Below are positions 8,959-32,490 of a stretch of DNA of 64,000 nt, in pieces. Position 1 is the stretch's first letter. Every line of letters starts with the position of its first letter. The notes under the pieces are model-generated. The model searched no databases and was not told the origin of the DNA. It saw only the letters and a list, made by a program, of their open reading frames with translations. Location of the stretch: NCBI RefSeq assembly GCF_003261175.1, contig NZ_QLNP01000067.1:1-64000 (forward strand), read 5' to 3'. A program made the translations under genes and the position numbers. This stretch comes from Arthrobacter globiformis. Its GTDB lineage: Bacteria > Actinomycetota > Actinomycetes > Actinomycetales > Micrococcaceae.

Positions 8959-9309
8959 TTACCGCCAGAGTGTCGCGATAGCGACGTTCAGCAGTGCCAG
9001 CCCGCCCACGCTGTGGGCCAGGCCGGTGGAGATCGGCTCACCCTTCTTGTACTTGCGGCGGCCGATGAAGGCCAGCACGCCGACGACCAGGGCAACGCCG
9101 AACTTAATGCCCAGCTTGGCATAGTTGGCGTCCATGTCGAGCGCGGGGATCAGGCCCATCATCACGATGCCGGTGAGGAGCTGGAGTGCAGCGCCGTCGA
9201 ACTGCCGGGGATGGACGGTCGGCTTCTTCATGTTGCCGATCCAGATGCCGACGATCATGGCGGCGCCGACGATGTGCAGGAAGACCATGACGTTATAGAC
9301 GATGTTCAT
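8959..9309 (-). CDS. Small four-helix integral membrane protein
   Basis: 116 aa with four hydrophobic segments (about residues 5-25, 40-57, 66-84 and 95-113) and a histidine near the start of helix 1 (FLHIVGAAMIVGIWIG), a pattern seen in uncharacterised actinobacterial membrane proteins. A basic GRRKYKKG loop lies between helices 3 and 4. Monocistronic: its own strong terminator follows. No function can be assigned. Confidence 0.75.
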   Translation of the reverse strand: MNIVYNVMVFLHIVGAAMIVGIWIGNMKKPTVHPRQFDGAALQLLTGIVMMGLIPALDMDANYAKLGIKFGVALVVGVLAFIGRRKYKKGEPISTGLAHSVGGLALLNVAIATLWR

Positions 9310-9368
9310 GGCACCAGTCTAGCCAGATCCTTCTACACGCCGTAGTAAGACACAGCCGCATAGAAAAG

Positions 9369-9442: not shown

Positions 9443-11191
9443 CTAGAGTCCCAGGTCCGCTTCGAACGCGCCTTCTTCGAGGCGGGCCTTCAGCGTCTGC
9501 AGGAAGCGACCGGCGTCCGCACCGTCCACCAGGCGGTGGTCGTAGGTGAGGGACAGGTACATCATGGAGCGGATGGCGATCGAGTCGTCACCGTTCTCGT
9601 CCTGGACCACCACGGGGCGCTTGACGATCGCACCGGTGCCCAGGATGCCGACCTGCGGCTGGTTGATGATCGGGGTGTCGAACAGCGCACCCACGGAACC
9701 GATGTTGGTGATGCTGAACGTACCGCCGGACAGTTCGTCCGGGCCGATCTTGCCGTTGCGGGTGCGGTCCGCGACGTCGGCGATCTTGGCGGCCAGGCCG
9801 GCGAGGTTCAGGCTTCCGGCGTCGGAGATGACCGGAACCAGCAGGCCCTTGTCCGTGTCGACGGCGATCGCCAGGTGCTCGGCGTTGTGGTACGTGATTT
9901 CCTGCTTGTCCTCGTCGTACGCAGCGTTGAGCGTAGCGTGCTGCTTGAGGGCTTCGGCCACGGCCTTGGCGATGAAGGGCAGGAAGGTGAGCTTGACGCC
10001 GTTCTGGGCCTGGAACGAGTTCTTGGCCTTCAGGCGCAGCTTGGCCACCTTGGTCATGTCCACTTCGTGCACCTGGGTCAGCTGGGTGGAAACATCCAGT
10101 GACTCACGCATGCGGCGGGCGATGACCTGGCGGATCCTCGGCGCCTTCTTCACAGTGCCGCGCAGCGAGGACGCTGCGGCCGACGGAGCGGCGGAAGCTG
10201 CAGGGGCTGCCTGCGCTGCGGCTGCCGGAGCGGCCTTGGATTCGGCAGCGGCCAGGACGTCCTGCTTGCGGATGCGGCCGCCGACGCCCGTGCCGGAGAC
10301 GGAGGCGATGTCCACGCCGTGCTGGTTGGCGAGCTTGCGGACCAGGGGAGTGACGTAGCCGGACTCTCCGCCCGCGGCCGGGGCGGCCTGCGGTGCGGCT
10401 GCTTCCTGCGGAGCCGGTGCAGCCTGCGGTGCCGGTGCTGGCTCGGGAGCAGGCGCGGGTGCTGCCTGCGGAGCAGGCGCTTCGGCGGGCTTCTCGGCTG
10501 CCGGGGCGGGCTGTTCCGCTGCGGGGGCGGCGGGGGCCTCGGCGGGCTTCTCGGGAGCCGCAGCAGGAGCAGCGGCTCCCGAACCGATGACGGCGAGGAC
10601 GGAGCCAACCTCGGCGGTCTCGTCCTCGTTGACGCGGATTTCCTGCAGCGTGCCGGCCACGGGGGACGGGATCTCGGTGTCTACCTTGTCGGTGGAGACC
10701 TCGAGCAGCGGCTCATCAACTTCAACGGTGTCGCCTATGGCCTTGAGCCAGCGGGTGACGGTGCCTTCGGTGACGCTCTCGCCAAGTGCCGGCAGGGTGA
10801 CCTCGTGGCCTTCGCCGGAGGAGGCGGGGGCTGCTTCCGCGGCAGGTGCTTCCTGGGCGGGTGCTGCTGCGGGTGCCTCTTCGGCCGGTGCTGCTGCAGG
10901 CGCCTCTTCGGCGGGTGCTGCTGCGGGTGCCTCTTCGGCAGCTCCGCCGCCCGAGCCGTCACCGATGCGCACCAGCGGGGCGCCAACTTCAGCGGTCTCA
11001 TCTTCGGCGACGAGGATTTCCTCGATGACGCCGGCGATCGGAGAGGGGATTTCAGTGTCTACTTTGTCGGTGGAAACCTCGAGCAGCGGTTCGTCCACCT
11101 CTACCCGGTCACCTACCTGCTTGAGCCAGCGGGTGACAGTTCCTTCGGTGACGCTCTCACCGAGGGCGGGCAAGTTAACGGATTCAGACAT
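9443..11191 (-). CDS. sucB: Dihydrolipoamide acyltransferase (E2 of 2-oxoacid dehydrogenase)
   Basis: 582 aa. Two N-terminal lipoyl domains each carry the lipoyl-lysine motif [14 protein letters not shown]; they are joined by Ala/Pro/Glu-rich swinging linkers with EEAPAAAPA repeats. A peripheral-subunit-binding domain ([15 protein letters not shown]) and a C-terminal acyltransferase domain with [13 protein letters not shown] follow. The name sucB follows common annotation, but two lipoyl domains and the neighbourhood (pepA, lipB, lipA) match M. tuberculosis DlaT, the pyruvate dehydrogenase E2, so the substrate may be acetyl. AAAGGAG precedes the chosen ATG at 11189-11191. Lies downstream of lpd on the same strand; no E1 gene is present here. 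Confidence 0.93.
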
Positions 11192-24599: not shown

Positions 24600-24630
24600 G
24601 AGCCCGCCCAACCAGCAGGCAGGGCGGCTC
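24600..24630. terminator. Weak hairpin between parE and the M56 peptidase gene
   Basis: GAGCC-c-GCCC pairs with GGGCGGCTC with one bulge, overlapping the M56 stop codon. It could terminate parE; there is no T-run. Confidence 0.35.
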
Positions 24631-25615
24631 AGCCCAGCAGGCCGGGTACGATCAGCAGGGCCGTGGGCATCGCCAGCAGCAGCGCGCACACGGCAAGGAC
24701 GGCTGCGCGGAGGCCTCCGGCGAGCGGCGGCCGGGGTGAGAGAAGGCGGCTGACGCGTGTCGCCGTCGTACTTGCCGGGCCGGCGCCGCCGGCACCGTCC
24801 GGGAGTTGCAGGCTTGCCCCTGCGAGCCCGGCTGCTTCGACGACGGCGGCCCCCTGGGGTGCTGCAGAACCGCTGGCGACGATGGCTATGGCTTTGATCA
24901 GGGTCGCCTTGCTCTCCGTCTTGAGGGCAACGTCGTCCGCCAGCATTTCGATCAGGGAGTTCACGGCTTCCTGGGCAAGGCGTGTGGTGGGCAGCCACGG
25001 CAGTGCCTGGCGCCAGGCGGCGAACGCCCACAGCAGCAGGTGGTGGCGCTGGGTCAGGTGCGCGTTTTCGTGGATCAGGACGGCACGCAGCTCCGCCGGT
25101 TCAAGGGCCGCCATGAGCCCGTCGGAGAGCACCGTGACCGAACGCGCTCCGCCCGGCAGGCAGTAGGCCACCGGGGAATCGTGGTTGATGACCACCGTGC
25201 CGGGCCCGTCGTCCGACGGCGATGCCAGGAGGGCCAGCAACTCGCGGTGGCGCCTGCGCTGGCGCTCAATCTTGTAATAGGTCAGAAGCAGCGTGAAGAC
25301 GAGGTGCGCCGTCAGCAGCGCGGCCGCGGAAAGCGCGAAGAGATGCCAGAATCCCAGCGCGGTGGTGGGCGCCGCAAACAGCACCATGCCTGCCAGCGCG
25401 CACAGGCCGGCAAGGAGGTTGTCGCCGACGGGTTCGAGGCCGTACACCAGCATGGCGCCGATCATCGACAGCCCGCCCGCGAGGCCGATGGCCTGCCACA
25501 GCACCATGGCCGTAAAAGGGTCGCGCGCCGGCCAGCGGGCGCGCGAAAGAAGGATAGGTACCGGCCATGCCAGTACTATCGCCAGGACCGCCAGGAAATA
25601 TGAGGTCCAGAACAT
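24629..25615 (-). CDS. M56-family membrane metallopeptidase (BlaR1/MecR1-like)
   Basis: 328 aa. Several membrane helices surround a cytosolic zinc-protease motif HENAHLTQRHH, preceded by VTVLSDGLMAAL. Unlike BlaR1 there is no large penicillin-binding sensor domain. In BlaR/BlaI systems the peptidase inactivates the adjacent repressor on signal; the same is inferred here. It lies 6 nt downstream of blaI, clearly one operon. The signal is unknown and, from the cyd promoter sites, may be respiratory rather than beta-lactam. Confidence 0.88.
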   Translation of the reverse strand: MFWTSYFLAVLAIVLAWPVPILLSRARWPARDPFTAMVLWQAIGLAGGLSMIGAMLVYGLEPVGDNLLAGLCALAGMVLFAAPTTALGFWHLFALSAAALLTAHLVFTLLLTYYKIERQRRRHRELLALLASPSDDGPGTVVINHDSPVAYCLPGGARSVTVLSDGLMAALEPAELRAVLIHENAHLTQRHHLLLWAFAAWRQALPWLPTTRLAQEAVNSLIEMLADDVALKTESKATLIKAIAIVASGSAAPQGAAVVEAAGLAGASLQLPDGAGGAGPASTTATRVSRLLSPRPPLAGGLRAAVLAVCALLLAMPTALLIVPGLLG

Positions 25616-25621
25616 CAGGTG

Positions 25622-26008
25622 CTAGCTGTGGCCAAGCAGTTTGCGCAGCGTCTCGGCTTCACTTTCCGTCACCGATCCGATGAACCGGGCCAGCACGGCC
25701 TCGCGGTCCGGGGCGGATCCCAGCACTTCGTGCATGAGTTCGGCGGTGTGGTCTTCGCGGCTGGACACAGCCTGGTAGCGGTGCGGCCGGGTGCCGCGTT
25801 CGCGTTCCACGAGGCCCTTCTTTTCGAGACGCGAGAGGACCGTCAATACGGTGGTTACCGCCAGGTCCTTGCCCTCGTGCCCTGCTGCTCCGCCCTGCGC
25901 TGCCGTGCTCCGCGCAAGCAGGTCCCGCAGCGTGTTGGCCGTGGCTGCTTCGTGGCCCGCCCAGAGCAGGTCCATGACTGCGCGTTCGAGTTCCCCAAGA
26001 CTTGCCAT
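25622..26008 (-). CDS. blaI: BlaI/MecI/CopY-family transcriptional repressor
   Basis: 128 aa winged-helix repressor: LGELERAVMDLLWAG, TVLTVLSRLEKKGLVERERGTRPHRY and a C-terminal dimerisation helix region (SVTESEAETLRKLLG). AAGGATG precedes the ATG at 26006-26008. Divergent from cydA; the 272-bp intergenic region contains three matching dyads, the best of which has the TACA/TGTA half-site core typical of BlaI operators. In M. tuberculosis the BlaI homologue Rv1846c pairs with the M56 protein Rv1845c and is linked to respiration and ATP-synthase genes. Confidence 0.93.
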   Translation of the reverse strand: MASLGELERAVMDLLWAGHEAATANTLRDLLARSTAAQGGAAGHEGKDLAVTTVLTVLSRLEKKGLVERERGTRPHRYQAVSSREDHTAELMHEVLGSAPDREAVLARFIGSVTESEAETLRKLLGHS

Positions 26009-26108: not shown

Positions 26109-26125
26109 TTCTACATGAGGTAGAA
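26109..26125. promoter_or_regulatory. BlaI-type operator 1 (blaI-proximal)
   Basis: TTCTAC-ATGAG-GTAGAA, 17-bp dyad with perfect 6-bp arms, about 100 bp upstream of blaI; suited to autoregulation. Confidence 0.75.
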
Positions 26126-26176
26126 CGTTCGGCGCGTTGAGGGTGATTGCGTTCCCCGGATGTGCATGCAACCGTG

Positions 26177-26205
26177 TTTACAGTGTTCGCCTCGTGTTCT
26201 ACACT
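26177..26205 (+). promoter_or_regulatory. cydA promoter
   Basis: -35 TTTACA (26177-26182), 17-bp spacer, -10 TACACT (26200-26205). The -10 lies inside operator 2. Start expected near 26212. Confidence 0.7.
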
Positions 26206-26213
26206 CTGTAGAA
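26197..26213. promoter_or_regulatory. BlaI-type operator 2 (over cydA -10)
   Basis: TTCTACA-CTC-TGTAGAA, a 17-bp dyad with perfect 7-bp arms that overlaps the cydA -10. Confidence 0.8.
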
Positions 26214-26220
26214 GATGGAG

Positions 26221-26237
26221 TTCTACACTGCGTAGAA
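26221..26237. promoter_or_regulatory. BlaI-type operator 3 (downstream of cydA start site)
   Basis: TTCTAC-ACTGC-GTAGAA. It begins 24 bp after operator 2, just downstream of the predicted transcription start, so two repressor dimers could sit side by side. Confidence 0.78.
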
Positions 26238-26280: not shown

Positions 26281-27882
26281 TTGGACGCCTTGGAAATCGC
26301 ACGCTGGCAATTCGGGATCACCACCGTCTACCACTTCATGATGGTGCCGCTGACAATCGGCCTGGGCCTGGTGGTCGCAGTGATGCAGACAATCTGGCAC
26401 CGCACCGGGAATCCGGCCTATCTGCGCATGACCAAGTTCTGGGGGAAGCTCTTCCTCATCAATTTCATCATGGGCGTGGCCACGGGCATCGTCCAGGAGT
26501 TCCAGTTCGGCATGGCCTGGAGCGAGTACAGCCGGTTCGTGGGCGACGTCTTTGGCGCCCCGCTGGCCCTTGAGGCGCTCCTCGCCTTCTTCGTCGAGTC
26601 GACCTTTTTGGGCCTGTGGATCTTCGGCTGGAAGCAGCTCAAGCCGGGCGTCCACCTCGCGTGCCTCTGGATCGCCGTGGTGGGCTCGTTTTTCTCCGCG
26701 TACTTCATCATCGTGGCCAACAGCTGGATGCAGCACCCCGTCGGCGTCACGATGATTGACGGCCGCCCGGTCATGACGGACGCCTGGGCCGTCTTCACCA
26801 ACAACACCGCCCTGGTGGCCGTGCCGCACACGCTCTTCGGCGCCCTTGCCGTGGCCGGCGGATTCCTGCTGGGCATCGCCTGGTACCACCTTTGGCGCCG
26901 GCGCCGCGACGGCATCGACACCGTGGGGGCCGACGGCAAGGTCATTGCCGGGGAGGCCGCGATCCCGGGCCGCGACCGCACCGACTACACGGTGTGGATC
27001 AAGTCGCTGCGGATCGGCGCCGTCGTCGCCATGATCTCCTTTGCCGGAACCGCCCTCACCGGCGACCTGCAGGGCAAGCTGATGTTCGAGCAGCAGCCCA
27101 TGAAAATGGCCGCCGCCGAGGCCGCGTGCCACGACGGTACGGGATTCTCCGTCCTGAGCGTTGGCAATCTGGGCTCCCGCAACTGTGACGACATCGTGGC
27201 CCTGATCGAGGTCCCGGGCATCCTCTCCTACCTCGCCAAGGGCGACTTCACCACGGAGGTCAAGGGCGTCAACAGCCTGCTCGACCAGTACAAGGCGGAC
27301 TACGGCACGCACCTCCCTGACAACCCCATCTACGGCGACCGCGCCGGCCAGGAGATCGAGTACGTGCCGGTCATGGAGGTCACCTACTGGGGCTTCCGGG
27401 CCATGATCGGGTTCGGCGGCCTGGCTGCCCTCGCCGCCCTGGTGGCGCTCTGGCTGACCCGCAAGGGGACCGTTCCCGAGTCGCGCTGGCTGATGCGGCT
27501 GGCCGTGTTCGGCATCCTGGCTCCCTTCGGTGCCAACGCCGCGGGCTGGATCTTCACGGAAATGGGCCGCCAGCCCTTCGTGGTGGCCCCCAACCCCGAC
27601 CTCAACGGCATTGACCAGGTGTTCATGTTCACCGCCGCGGCTGTGTCGCCAGGGGTTTCCGCCGGCGAAATCCTGACGTCCCTCATTGTCCTCACCCTCA
27701 TCTACGCGGTGCTCCTCGTGGTGGAGGTGAAGCTCCTCGTGAAGTACGTCCGGGGCGGCGTGGCCTCGGCAATGCCCGAACTGGTCCACGCGCCGGTGGA
27801 CGAGAACGAGGACGCCACGCCCCGCGACGGCGGACCGGACAAGCCGGGAACCTCCGACGACGTCCTGGCTTTCGCCTACTAA
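26281..27882 (+). CDS. cydA: Cytochrome bd ubiquinol/menaquinol oxidase subunit I
   Basis: 533 aa polytopic haem protein that oxidises quinol and reduces O2. Haem ligands are visible: His in VYHFMMVP (residue about 18), His in VAVPHTLFGALA, and the conserved GWIFTEMGRQPF. Begins at TTG 26281, giving the family N-terminus DALEIARWQFGITTVYHF; the Shine-Dalgarno is weak (AGGGA). First gene of cydA-cydB-cydDC and directly downstream of the operators. The stop region is duplicated (16-bp repeat). Confidence 0.97.
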   Translation: MDALEIARWQFGITTVYHFMMVPLTIGLGLVVAVMQTIWHRTGNPAYLRMTKFWGKLFLINFIMGVATGIVQEFQFGMAWSEYSRFVGDVFGAPLALEALLAFFVESTFLGLWIFGWKQLKPGVHLACLWIAVVGSFFSAYFIIVANSWMQHPVGVTMIDGRPVMTDAWAVFTNNTALVAVPHTLFGALAVAGGFLLGIAWYHLWRRRRDGIDTVGADGKVIAGEAAIPGRDRTDYTVWIKSLRIGAVVAMISFAGTALTGDLQGKLMFEQQPMKMAAAEAACHDGTGFSVLSVGNLGSRNCDDIVALIEVPGILSYLAKGDFTTEVKGVNSLLDQYKADYGTHLPDNPIYGDRAGQEIEYVPVMEVTYWGFRAMIGFGGLAALAALVALWLTRKGTVPESRWLMRLAVFGILAPFGANAAGWIFTEMGRQPFVVAPNPDLNGIDQVFMFTAAAVSPGVSAGEILTSLIVLTLIYAVLLVVEVKLLVKYVRGGVASAMPELVHAPVDENEDATPRDGGPDKPGTSDDVLAFAY

Positions 27883-27916: not shown

Positions 27917-28966
27917 ATGGAACTGCTGCCGACCATCTGGTTCATTGCCATCGCCGTCCTGTGGACCGGCTACCTCTTCCTGGAGGGATTCGACCTTGGG
28001 GTTGGGATGCTGATGAAGATCTTTGCGCGAAACAACACCGAACGCCGCGTGCTCCTCAACACGATCGGGCCGGTCTGGGACGGAAACGAAGTCTGGCTCC
28101 TGACCGCCGGCGGCGCCACTTTCGCGGCCTTCCCGTTCTGGTACGCCTCCCTGTTCTCCGCCCTGTACCTGCCGCTGCTGCTGGTCCTCGTCGCCCTGAT
28201 CTTCCGGGCGGTGGCGTTCGAGTACCGCGGCAAGGTGGACACCGACCGCTGGCGGAACACCTGGGACTGGGCGATCGCCGTCGGGTCCTTCCTGGCCGCC
28301 TTCGGCGTGGGTGCCGCGCTGGGTCTGACCACCACCGGGCTGCCGCTGGACGCCAACGGCGACCGCGACGGCGGGCCGTTCGCATGGTTCAGCTGGTACG
28401 CGGTGCTGGGGGGTCTGGCCGTGGTTGGCTTTGCCCTGCTGCACGCCCTGGCGTTCCTGGCACTGAAGACCGACGGCGACGTGCGGCACCGCGCGCGGCA
28501 GTGGTTTGTGCGGCTGCTTCCCGTCCTGCTCCTCCCGATGGCGGGCTGGGCCATCGGCGTTCAGGTCCTCAGCGGTGAAGCGTGGACGCTGGTTGTGCTG
28601 GCGGTGGCCGTGGTTGCCGCGGCTGTGGCCTGGGCCCAGGCCCGGAAGGGAAACGAAGGCCGCGCCTTCCTCGCAATTGGCGTGTTCCTGCTGAGCGGCT
28701 CAGCCTCCATCTTCGGGGCTGTGTTTCCGGTGGTCCTCCCGTCCACCATCGACCCCGCATTCAACCTCACCATCGCCAACGCCTCGTCCTCGGACTACAC
28801 CCTCGGTCTGATGAGCATCGTGGCCTGCGTCGGGTTGCCGCTGGTGATCGCCTACCAGGCGTGGACCTACTGGGTGTTCCGCCGCCGCGTCAGCGCCGCC
28901 CACATTCCGGAGGCGCACAGCTTCCTGCCCGCTGTCGCCGCCAAAGCACTCATCAGGAAAGACTGA
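27917..28966 (+). CDS. cydB: Cytochrome bd oxidase subunit II
   Basis: 349 aa membrane subunit. The family start TIWFIAIAVLWTGYLFLEGFDLGVGML and the GPVWDGNEVWLL motif are present, with 8-9 helices. ATG after a GAGGA-like site. It lies 34 nt downstream of cydA and its stop is 5 nt before the cydDC TTG start. Confidence 0.97.
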   Translation: MELLPTIWFIAIAVLWTGYLFLEGFDLGVGMLMKIFARNNTERRVLLNTIGPVWDGNEVWLLTAGGATFAAFPFWYASLFSALYLPLLLVLVALIFRAVAFEYRGKVDTDRWRNTWDWAIAVGSFLAAFGVGAALGLTTTGLPLDANGDRDGGPFAWFSWYAVLGGLAVVGFALLHALAFLALKTDGDVRHRARQWFVRLLPVLLLPMAGWAIGVQVLSGEAWTLVVLAVAVVAAAVAWAQARKGNEGRAFLAIGVFLLSGSASIFGAVFPVVLPSTIDPAFNLTIANASSSDYTLGLMSIVACVGLPLVIAYQAWTYWVFRRRVSAAHIPEAHSFLPAVAAKALIRKD

Positions 28967-28971
28967 CCGCC

Positions 28972-31900
28972 TTGAAACCCCAGTTCCCGTCCGGCCCCTC
29001 CACCCGCCGCGCCCTCTACGGACTGGGCCTGCTGGCTGCCCTGAAGGCCCTGTCCCTGGTGCTCATGGGGCAGGCAGTCGCCTCCGTGCTGGCCGGCCTC
29101 ATGACGCAGGACACCGCGTGGGCTGACCAGCTGGGCTGGGGCGCGGCCGGCGTGGTGCTGCGGTCCGTGACGGTCTGGGCGCAGGGCGTCGCCGCAAGGC
29201 GCGCCGCCCTGGGCGTCAAGGAGGAGTTGCGCGCGGAACTCCTGGAGACGGCACTGCGCAACGGCGTCCGGTCCGCAGGCCCTGCCGACGGCGGCCTGGC
29301 GGTACTCGCGACGCGAGGCCTGGATGCGCTGGACAGCTATTACACGCAGTACCTCCCCGCGCTGGTGAACTGTGCGGCCATACCGCTGCTGCTCGGCGCC
29401 CGCATCCTTTTCGCCGACTGGGTCAGCGCGGTGGTGATCGTGCTGACGGTGCCCCTGGTCCCCGTGTTCATGGTGCTGATCGGCCGCTACACGGAGGACA
29501 AGGTGCGGGATGCGCAGGCCGCCCTCTCCCGGCTCTCCGGGCACATGCTCGAACTCGCCAAGGGCCTGCCGGTGCTGGTGGGACTGGGCCGCGCCGCCGC
29601 CCAGCGCCGCTCCCTGGAGGACATCTCGGAGGATTACCGGTCGCGGACTATGGGGACCCTGCGGACGGCGTTCCTCTCCGCGCTCGCCCTGGAACTGATC
29701 GCCACCATCTCCGTCGCCGTGGTGGCGGTGTTCATCGGCGTCCGGCTCGTCCACGGCGACATGGCGCTGGAGGCCGGGCTGCTTGCGCTCATCCTCGCCC
29801 CCGACTGCTACCTCCCGCTCCGGGAACTGGGGACCGCGCACCACGCGAGCGACGACGGCCGGGCCGCCCTTGCCGAAACTACGGCGGTGCTGGAAGCCCC
29901 GGAGCCCCGGCGGCTCGTGCCTGGTGGGGTCCCGGCAGAACCGGGCGGCGTAGAGGCCGCAGATGTGGCGGGCCCGGGCAGCCTGACAGTCCGGGACCTC
30001 ACGGTCAGCTATCCGGGAAGGCAGGGTCCCGCCGTCGGCCCCCTCAGCTTTATGGCGCCGGCCGGACTGGTCACCGCGCTGGACGGCCCCAGCGGGGCGG
30101 GGAAGAGCACGGTGCTGGGCGTTCTCGCGGGAACGGTTGGAAGCGGCGGCGGCACAGCGGTGTCAGGGACGATTTCAGGATTCACTGCCGGCGACGTGGC
30201 CTGGGTGCCGCAGCATCCGGTGATGGTGGCGAACACCGTGGGTGGTGAAGTCCTGCTGTACCTGACGGCGGGAACTCTGGCCGCCGGCACGCCAGTAACC
30301 GATGCAGCCGCCGCCGACGAAGCACAGGCCAGGGGAGTGCTCCGCTGCCTGGCGGCCGTCGGTGCGGACCACCTGGCGGACAAGCATCCAGCCGAACTGA
30401 GCCCGGGCGAGCTGCGACGCGTGGCCCTCGCCCGTGGCCTGGCCCGCATCGAGGCGGGAGCCACGGTATTGCTTCTGGATGAGCCCACGGCCCACCTCGA
30501 CCGGGATTCAGCCAACCGTGTCCACAACGCAATCCGTTCGCTGCGCGGCCGGGCCACCGTCATCCTGGTGGCCCACGACCGCCAGACGAGGGAACTCGCA
30601 GACCACATCGTGCCGCTGTCCGGCCGTGGAGCGCCGGCACCTGCTGCGCCCGCCGTTGAAATCCTGGCCAGCGCCGGCGTGGCAGGTCCCAGCGCCGCTG
30701 TTCCCGGCGCGGCAGCCGACGGCGGGGATGCCTTCTCAGTGGAGGCGGGACTTACGACGCCCGGCGTCCCGGCGGCCGAGGCGCAACCCGGCTCCGGCCA
30801 TGTTGCCGGCATGATTGCCCGGCTGCTCGCGCCCGTCCGCGGACGGTTCGCTGCCTCCGGGTCCGTCGGCGCCCTGGCCGCCCTTTTCGCCGTCGCGCTG
30901 TCCGGACTGTCCGGCTGGCTCATCCTGCGCGCCAGCGAGCAGCCGCCCATCATGTACCTCCTGACCGCCATCGTGGGTGTCCGGTTCTTCGGCATCGGCC
31001 GCGCCGTTCTGCGCTACTGCGAGCGGCTCCTCCTGCACGAAGCCGTGTTTGCGTCACTGACGAAACTTCGCGGGGGGCTCTGGGCATCCCTCAGCCAGCG
31101 GGCACTGTCCTTGCGCCGGTTACTGCAGGGCGGCAACGTGCTGGGCGCCGTTATCGAGGACGTCGACACCGTCCGGGACCTGCTCCCGCGGGTGGTGCTG
31201 CCGCCGGTTACCGCAGTGGCGGTGGCCGCGGCTGCTGCCGGTACGGCGGGCTGGCTGCTTCCCGCGGCGCTCCCGGCGTCGCTCGCCGCTGCCATGGTAA
31301 GCCTGGTGGCCGCCCCGGCCGCGGCACTGCTCGCCGACCGGATGTCGGCGCAGGCCGAACAGCGGTTGCGCTCCGGGGTCCTGCGGCGGGTGGCCGCGGC
31401 ACTCGATGCCAGGGCGGAACTGCACGCGAACGGCGCAAAGCGCCCGGTTCTGGACGGCATCCGTGCGCTGGACCGGGACGCCACCGGCGCAGCCCGGCGT
31501 TCGGCTTGGGCTGAAGGGCTCGGCCAGGCACTGACCGTGGGGGCGTGCGGCGCAGCCGCCCTCTACAGCGCCGTGCTGGCGGCTCCCCAGGTGCTGGCCG
31601 GTTCCCTTCCGGCGACCACTGTTGGCGTCGTCGTCCTTCTGCAGTTGGCGCTCGCCGAACCCTTTGGGGCCATGACGACGGCGGTACGGCAGTTTCCGGC
31701 TTTGCGTGCGGTCCTGCGCCGCATCGGAGAGTCGGGCGTGCTGCAGCCGGGAGACCCCGGCGCTGGCAACAACACCGGGCGGCCCTCCCGGCCCGGCTCG
31801 CGGGAATCCGGGCAGCCGGGCGTTGAACTGGATGGGTTGTCGGCGGCGTGGCCGGGGGGCCGGACTGTCTTCAGTGGCCTGTCGGCCGTGGCTGAGCCCG

Positions 31901-32490
31901 GCCGCTGGCTGGCGGTGACCGGCCCGTCCGGCGCCGGCAAGTCCACGCTGCTCGCGGTGATGCTGGGCTTCCTCCCTGCCCTGGCCGGCCGCATCGCGGT
32001 GACGGGTACCGCGGCGTGGTGCCCCCAGGAGGCGCACCTCTTCGACTCCACGGTGCGCGGGAACCTGCTGCTCGGCAGCCCGCGGCAGGTGCCCGGCGAG
32101 GGGTCTGTGGCGGAGACGGAACAGGCGATGCGCGAAGCGCTCGCGGCGGTTGGACTTGCGCCACTGCTGGCCCGGCTGGAAGACGGACTGGATACCCGCA
32201 TCGGCCCGGGCGGAGCATTCCTCAGCGGCGGCGAACGGCAGCGGCTGGCGGTCGCGCGCACGCTCATGACAAACGCCGACGTGATTCTCCTGGACGAGCC
32301 AACGGCACACCTCGACGCCGAGTCCGGCCGGGCGCTCATTGCGGACCTGCGTGCGGGACTTGCGTCGCGCACCGTGGTGCTGGTGACCCACAACCCGGCT
32401 GACATCAGCCCCGACGATGCACTTTTGGACCTTCGCCCTGAACACCGGCTGGCTGCCTCCGCCGCGATGGCGTCAGGCCGGTCCGTTTGA
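28972..32490 (+). CDS. cydDC: CydD-CydC fusion ABC transporter
   Basis: 1172 aa, about twice the size of CydD or CydC: two complete half-transporters in one chain. Half 1 has membrane helices and an ATPase with Walker A GPSGAGKSTVLG, a signature in LSPGELRRVALARG (variant of LSGGQ) and LLLDEPTAHLD. Half 2 repeats this with GPSGAGKSTLLA, LSGGERQRLAVART and ILLDEPTAHLD. CydDC exports reduced thiols and is needed for bd oxidase maturation. TTG start inferred from position after cydB. The 3' end overlaps the converging metallo-hydrolase gene by 18 bp. Confidence 0.93.
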   Translation: MKPQFPSGPSTRRALYGLGLLAALKALSLVLMGQAVASVLAGLMTQDTAWADQLGWGAAGVVLRSVTVWAQGVAARRAALGVKEELRAELLETALRNGVRSAGPADGGLAVLATRGLDALDSYYTQYLPALVNCAAIPLLLGARILFADWVSAVVIVLTVPLVPVFMVLIGRYTEDKVRDAQAALSRLSGHMLELAKGLPVLVGLGRAAAQRRSLEDISEDYRSRTMGTLRTAFLSALALELIATISVAVVAVFIGVRLVHGDMALEAGLLALILAPDCYLPLRELGTAHHASDDGRAALAETTAVLEAPEPRRLVPGGVPAEPGGVEAADVAGPGSLTVRDLTVSYPGRQGPAVGPLSFMAPAGLVTALDGPSGAGKSTVLGVLAGTVGSGGGTAVSGTISGFTAGDVAWVPQHPVMVANTVGGEVLLYLTAGTLAAGTPVTDAAAADEAQARGVLRCLAAVGADHLADKHPAELSPGELRRVALARGLARIEAGATVLLLDEPTAHLDRDSANRVHNAIRSLRGRATVILVAHDRQTRELADHIVPLSGRGAPAPAAPAVEILASAGVAGPSAAVPGAAADGGDAFSVEAGLTTPGVPAAEAQPGSGHVAGMIARLLAPVRGRFAASGSVGALAALFAVALSGLSGWLILRASEQPPIMYLLTAIVGVRFFGIGRAVLRYCERLLLHEAVFASLTKLRGGLWASLSQRALSLRRLLQGGNVLGAVIEDVDTVRDLLPRVVLPPVTAVAVAAAAAGTAGWLLPAALPASLAAAMVSLVAAPAAALLADRMSAQAEQRLRSGVLRRVAAALDARAELHANGAKRPVLDGIRALDRDATGAARRSAWAEGLGQALTVGACGAAALYSAVLAAPQVLAGSLPATTVGVVVLLQLALAEPFGAMTTAVRQFPALRAVLRRIGESGVLQPGDPGAGNNTGRPSRPGSRESGQPGVELDGLSAAWPGGRTVFSGLSAVAEPGRWLAVTGPSGAGKSTLLAVMLGFLPALAGRIAVTGTAAWCPQEAHLFDSTVRGNLLLGSPRQVPGEGSVAETEQAMREALAAVGLAPLLARLEDGLDTRIGPGGAFLSGGERQRLAVARTLMTNADVILLDEPTAHLDAESGRALIADLRAGLASRTVVLVTHNPADISPDDALLDLRPEHRLAASAAMASGRSV

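Follow-up and report, generated by a model that had tools for sequence, protein, structure and literature searches.

A putative BlaI-type operator dyad conserved before cytochrome bd genes, and a predicted respiratory regulon, in Arthrobacter and its relatives

The staphylococcal BlaR1-BlaI and MecR1-MecI systems pair a repressor with an adjacent membrane zinc protease that carries a penicillin-binding sensor domain. In Mycobacterium tuberculosis the corresponding BlaR (BlaI-BlaR, Rv1846c-Rv1845c) is without a sensor domain according to PMC5473688, which for that reason calls the way M. tuberculosis responds to beta-lactams still unknown and which, citing Sala et al. 2009, adds that mycobacterial BlaI also binds the cytochrome bd (cyd) and ATP synthase (atp) promoters. 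Among other sources, PMC12565901 reports BlaI binding before Rv1303-atp by electrophoretic mobility shift assay, PMC7924339 and PMC5874750 repeat the BlaI-atp link, and PMC8265638 names blaC and sigC as BlaI targets in M. tuberculosis. The idea that BlaI acts on respiration therefore has precedent. Here we describe a BlaI system in a 64,000-nucleotide stretch of Arthrobacter globiformis DNA (assembly GCF_003261175.1, contig NZ_QLNP01000067.1, positions 1-64,000, forward strand; hereafter the window), where blaI and the gene for an M56-type protease lie divergent from the cytochrome bd gene cydA, with three copies of the dyad TTCTAC-N5-GTAGAA in the gap (Table 1). New here are the predicted haem, cytochrome c and nitric oxide (NO) targets, the change of half-site and how deeply the arrangement is conserved; none of the literature matches listed described BlaI in Arthrobacter relatives as governing haem synthesis, cytochrome c maturation and hmp together.

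The arrangement differs from that of M. tuberculosis in its TTCTAC half-site (TACTAC/TACGAC there), in the divergent placement of blaI-M56 and cydA, and in extra sites at hemQ-hemH, resA-ccs, nsrR-hmp and others. It differs from the staphylococcal systems in lacking the penicillin-binding domain and in having respiratory genes as its predicted targets, and its BlaI comes nowhere near the NCBIfam cut-offs set for MecI and BlaI. CopY/TcrY belongs to the same winged-helix family, and copper-protein operons (copC) do lie at a few of the sites described here, but the TIGR02698 score of 27 bits falls short of the 121.95 cut-off, BlaI is partnered with a protease here, and haem and cytochrome genes are the main predicted targets.

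Table 1. Features of the window discussed in the text
Feature	Position	Strand	Description
Membrane protein, predicted regulon member	8959..9309	-	116 residues, four helices, no Pfam family
One-mismatch operator, predicted, minus-strand sequence TACTACGGCGTGTAGAA	9331..9347	none	38 bp before the gene at 8959..9309
M56/M48-type membrane zinc protease	24629..25615	-	328 residues, HENAH motif, no sensor domain
blaI	25622..26008	-	128-residue winged-helix repressor; Penicillinase_R PF03965, E 1.5e-20
Dyad 1, TTCTACATGAGGTAGAA	26109..26125	none	nearest blaI; exact TTCTAC-N5-GTAGAA; putative autoregulatory site
Promoter-like TTTACA-17-TACACT of cydA	26177..26205	+	-10 conserved, -35 weakly conserved
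Dyad 2, TTCTACACTCTGTAGAA	26197..26213	none	exact TTCTAC-N5-GTAGAA over the cydA -10
Dyad 3, TTCTACACTGCGTAGAA	26221..26237	none	exact TTCTAC-N5-GTAGAA, 24 bp past dyad 2
cydA	26281..27882	+	PF01654, E 3.6e-151; TTG start (ATG or GTG in relatives)
cydB	27917..28966	+	PF02322, E 2.4e-104
cydDC, single fused gene	28993..32490	+	1165-residue open reading frame; TIGR02857 and TIGR02868 both above cut-off

The dyads and the repressor-protease pair

The three dyads that a first-pass annotation had placed between blaI and cydA are all exact. It referred to the TACA/TGTA dyads that BlaI repressors bind; the half-site proves to be TTCTAC and not just TACA. As the annotation also stated, one copy covers the cydA -10: TACACT falls within dyad 2, whose spacer starts with ACT in 55 of 60 three-dyad loci from other genomes, the spacers of dyads 1 and 3 doing so in 0/60 each (the window is an exception, its dyad 3 spacer likewise starting with ACT). 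When 11 rows from 10 genomes are aligned, the half-sites stay the same and the spacers vary, except for the ACT of dyad 2 that completes the -10. The TTTACA -35, present in the window, was dropped as a conserved element, since at least four of its six bases match in only 17 of the 60 three-dyad loci.

Shuffles and reversed-pattern controls, applied to the window, its own genome and the genus, rule out a chance origin. With up to two mismatches allowed, the window has 4 matches, the fourth being the one-mismatch copy at 9331-9347, where shuffled sequence gives 0.20 on average; the exact dyad occurs 8 times in the 4.88 Mb genome against once for the reversed pattern, and 456 times against 68 when 61 genus genomes are summed. 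One-mismatch dyads are not enriched in the window's own genome (14, including the 8 exact, against 18 for the control), and for that reason we rely on exact or positionally conserved sites only.

BlaI clears the curated cut-off of PF03965 (74.1 bits against 22.6), and a sequence scan places a TAC/GTA-type dyad at its own and its predicted target promoters, as in the BlaI/MecI family. Its sole solved relative found in the PDB, 2g9w (E 6.8e-16), we take to be M. tuberculosis BlaI, the printed name of the entry being "conserved hypothetical protein". Pfam matches the adjacent protease to M48 and places it below the M56 cut-off (22.9 against 31 bits), while 25 of 28 members of the protease family match Peptidase_M56 at E up to 0.001. 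A PDB sequence search with the single protein returned no match, and a search with the family profile returned M48-type relatives only. By fold comparison, however, the best match is the BlaR1 membrane-protease fold, and HExxH and the downstream E/D residues are invariant in 28/28 M56 sequences; the protein has the membrane zinc-protease fold with HExxH plus E of BlaR1/MecR1. No extracellular penicillin-binding sensor domain was found in it: the chain is short, it terminates 6 residues past the last membrane helix, and the alignment covers BlaR1 residues 1-289 only. By this sensor-domain test M56 is not a beta-lactam receptor, which bears out the earlier view that it lacks a penicillin-binding domain; it may instead act like a sensorless BlaR1.

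Conservation and co-occurrence

BlaI was found in 60 of the 61 genus genomes, the lone exception being 68% complete, and 30 of these 60 loci were fetched for dyad inspection. In 29 of them cydA adjoins blaI, and all 29 carry three exact dyads with a second-to-third spacing of 23-26 bp. The thirtieth locus (G014) is split, with some 12 kb between blaI and cydA; two dyads, at a spacing of 23 bp, remain upstream of cydA, and one remains 112 bp before blaI. A scan of public genomes, as the first-pass annotation had suggested, kept the best 80 of at least 572 confirmed relatives, spanning Arthrobacter, Pseudarthrobacter, Paenarthrobacter, Sinomonas, Acaricomes, Specibacter and others. M56 stands beside BlaI in 80/80 of these loci and cydA is divergent from blaI in 74/80; all 74 divergent loci have two or three dyads before cydA (60 with three exact copies and 14 with two, one locus of the latter group adding a one-mismatch third copy), and each of the six loci without cydA has exactly one.

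We also sampled the class evenly, taking 197 genomes, and called a BlaI close at 55% identity or more, a threshold chosen after seeing the data. Close BlaIs occur in 22 genomes (families f1, f4 and f21), and exact dyads are present in 22/22 of these against 3/175 of the others; the Fisher p of 3e-26 is indicative only, given the post hoc threshold and the relatedness of the genomes. Counted from the same table, the reversed pattern occurs in 5/22 and 26/175. None of the seven genomes having cydA without a close BlaI (eight cydA loci) carries the dyad before cydA. From conservation, co-occurrence and the split locus, the assignment of the dyads to BlaI and to cyd appears well supported, in agreement with the earlier proposal that the BlaI-M56 pair is tied to cytochrome bd.

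A related half-site occurs outside the families with a close BlaI. In two f3 genomes, whose BlaI is more distant, TACTAC-N5-GTAGTA-type dyads precede cydA, one exact and the other with one mismatch, and blaI-M56 follows the cyd genes in the same orientation. When TACTAC-type dyads with at most one mismatch were counted within 300 bp upstream of the best-matching cydA, they were present in f7 (11/11), f23 (3/3), f30 (2/2) and f20 (2/3) and in 0/2 of f22; five additional cydA copies had none, one further locus did not extend far enough, and cydA was missing from one genome. We label f7 mycobacterial-type because one of its BlaIs (L204) matches 2g9w at E 8e-60. A putative operator before cydA is a feature that the Arthrobacter system has in common with the mycobacterial-type respiratory BlaI regulon. 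In an alignment of 18 BlaIs over residues 46-79, positions 55 (Leu/Met), 59, 62 (Glu vs Ala/Thr) and 73 fully separate the TTCTAC from the TACTAC group. The TTCTAC-group BlaIs form one clade (support 0.975), so this covariation of residues and half-site may reflect a single event.

The wider predicted regulon

The first-pass annotation had confined the system to cydAB-cydDC. The link between dyad, BlaI and cyd stands, and the predicted regulon is wider than that, with a second operator in the same window. We classified all 60 exact sites of eight genus genomes (G000, G002, G003, G009, G014, G032, G051 and G055), leaving out of this count G038, G052 and G058, for which some of the sites had been retrieved, as well as G027 (68% complete), whose three sites lie at resA, hemQ and a membrane gene without known role; in each remaining genus genome at most one locus was inspected. 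The sites lie at blaI-cydA (24), hemQ-hemH (8), histidine phosphatase-resA (8), a small membrane gene pair (8), nsrR-hmp (7), a pyridoxamine-oxidase-like gene (4) and ctaE-qcrC (1), which places 48/60 at respiratory, haem or NO genes and 12/60 at genes without known role. The resA operon (cytochrome c maturation) continues with ccdA-like, resB and ccs-type genes. Elsewhere, a site in G058 lies between resB and a second resA-like gene, and one in G039 lies a few hundred bases before copC-PCuAC-DyP genes, the first open reading frame having no Pfam family. The genes identified at the 60 sites include no beta-lactamase or wall gene, annotation of the neighbours being incomplete, and neither blaC nor sigC was among the regulon genes identified, no dedicated search for either having been made.

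An operator before atp, as in the mycobacterial-type regulon, is present as the one-mismatch variant TTCTAT-N5-GTAGAA upstream of atpI in 30/30 genus genomes. We do not regard it as a deep feature with the TTCTAC half-site, since it is absent from most other families sampled: outside the genus, 2/17 atpB loci have either dyad type at up to one mismatch. A TACGAC-type dyad precedes atpB in one f7 genome.

In f21, 6 of 12 site loci fit the predicted regulon (L193-L197 and L199 are not among them): two at hemE with a DUF3817 gene, two at copC-copD (one by resemblance), one at cydA with a cobW-type gene, and one at a homologue of the window's membrane protein at 8959. At the two hemE loci (L192, L198) the dyad lies between hemE and a small membrane gene, assigned to DUF3817 by Pfam in L198, which would link DUF3817 to the regulon. 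Among four further f4 sites, two (L203, L145) precede a cydD-like ATP-binding cassette (ABC) transporter gene, with ABC Pfam domains in one and cydD assigned by reading, and the other two (L143, L146) carry no gene assignment; cydAB and cydDC may thus be controlled from two promoters in f4.

The second putative operator of the window, with its one mismatch, is kept in 11/12 genus relatives at -38 or -39, and in the relative without it (G032) the protein diverges most among the twelve; the f21 homologue (L200) has an exact dyad at -25. The protein is predicted as a four-helix bundle (predicted local distance difference test, pLDDT, 95.6), and two histidines are kept in 12/12 aligned sequences. 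Foldseek ranks a designed two-haem protein best (E 0.25) and cytochrome b562 twelfth (E 0.88). We set aside its identification as a haem protein because the fold is too generic, with many unrelated bundles scoring alike; haem binding by it is no more than a guess.

Three side observations may be recorded. The small gene pair (about 135 and 195 residues, no Pfam family) flanks an exact dyad in all eight classified genomes (L004, L023 and L055 are examples) and is a candidate for new respiratory genes. In the window's own genome (L001, C2:56804-59820) the hmp after nsrR is a relic, only two short pieces matching an intact relative, and the exact dyad before it is retained. An ARAGORN call of tRNA-Arg at 10369-10462 falls inside a long open reading frame resembling dihydrolipoamide acyltransferase and is probably false.

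Mechanism, signal and alternatives

The dyad system is real, well conserved and coherent, and we propose that BlaI represses a respiratory regulon through TTCTAC-N5-GTAGAA and that the adjacent M56 removes it on a signal of respiratory failure, a reading to which we give a probability of roughly 75%. A BlaI-family dimer would bind the dyad; because dyads 2 and 3 lie on the cydA -10 and just past the expected start, BlaI would repress cydAB-cydDC, and dyad 1 would serve blaI in autoregulation. The same repressor would govern haem synthesis, cytochrome c maturation, the flavohaemoprotein, ATP synthase and some membrane genes without known role. M56, with only the membrane and protease parts of BlaR1, would clear BlaI once electrons cease to flow or the membrane loses its energisation, giving more bd oxidase and haem/cytochrome supply. 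The sites, their conservation and co-occurrence, the protein families and the fold come from computation; binding, repression, cleavage and signal are all steps that we infer, the signal being the weakest: the respiratory make-up of the regulon suggests failing respiration, and supply of haem, copper or NO would explain it almost as well. The redox or respiration sensing that the first-pass annotation proposed in place of beta-lactam sensing is likewise a hypothesis.

If such supply were the signal, the protease or the repressor would report cofactor shortage or NO and the regulon would rebuild haem proteins. We hold this to be a serious if minority possibility, given that hemQ-hemH, hemE, cytochrome c maturation, copC/PCuAC and nsrR-hmp are all among the sites, but the ATP synthase sites fit a pure cofactor response poorly. 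It is also conceivable, though unlikely, that M56 is not the release factor and that BlaI is tuned by its abundance through its own dyad or by a direct ligand: cleavage is a predicted step and 5/6 f4 M56 copies are short (250-290 residues), but the constant presence of M56 beside BlaI in the best 80 loci and its invariant catalytic residues argue otherwise. Quite improbable, in our judgement, is a conventional beta-lactam or cell-wall stress switch with the respiratory genes as side targets of antibiotic-induced metabolic stress; the family is named after penicillinase control and, according to PMC5473688, M. tuberculosis BlaI represses blaC and beta-lactams induce blaI-blaR and cydAB, but the sensorless M56 and the identified genes at the 60 sites speak against it. 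That some other regulator binds the dyads, with blaI adjoining by coincidence, is very improbable indeed: the assignment to BlaI comes from sequence and an NsrR-type gene borders one site, but one dyad stays with blaI in the split locus, a one-mismatch dyad lies about 25 bp before blaI in most f21 loci, the dyad is missing where BlaI is missing, and the half-site varies together with BlaI residues 55, 59 and 62.

Returning to repression by BlaI with release by M56, we speculate further that sensorless BlaI-BlaR is of old standing across actinomycetes and regulates respiration in its entirety (bd oxidase, bc-aa3, cytochrome c, haem, ATP synthase, copper delivery and NO defence), that the protease helices read the quinone pool or energisation, and that beta-lactamase control is a later side branch; we would give this broader idea somewhat less than an even chance. 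The mostly respiratory regulon points to a respiratory signal for the sensorless protease, in a soil genus that is harmless and so convenient for study. If this is true, several membrane proteins without known role would be placed in respiratory assembly, and a textbook antibiotic-resistance module would be recast as a regulator of respiration.
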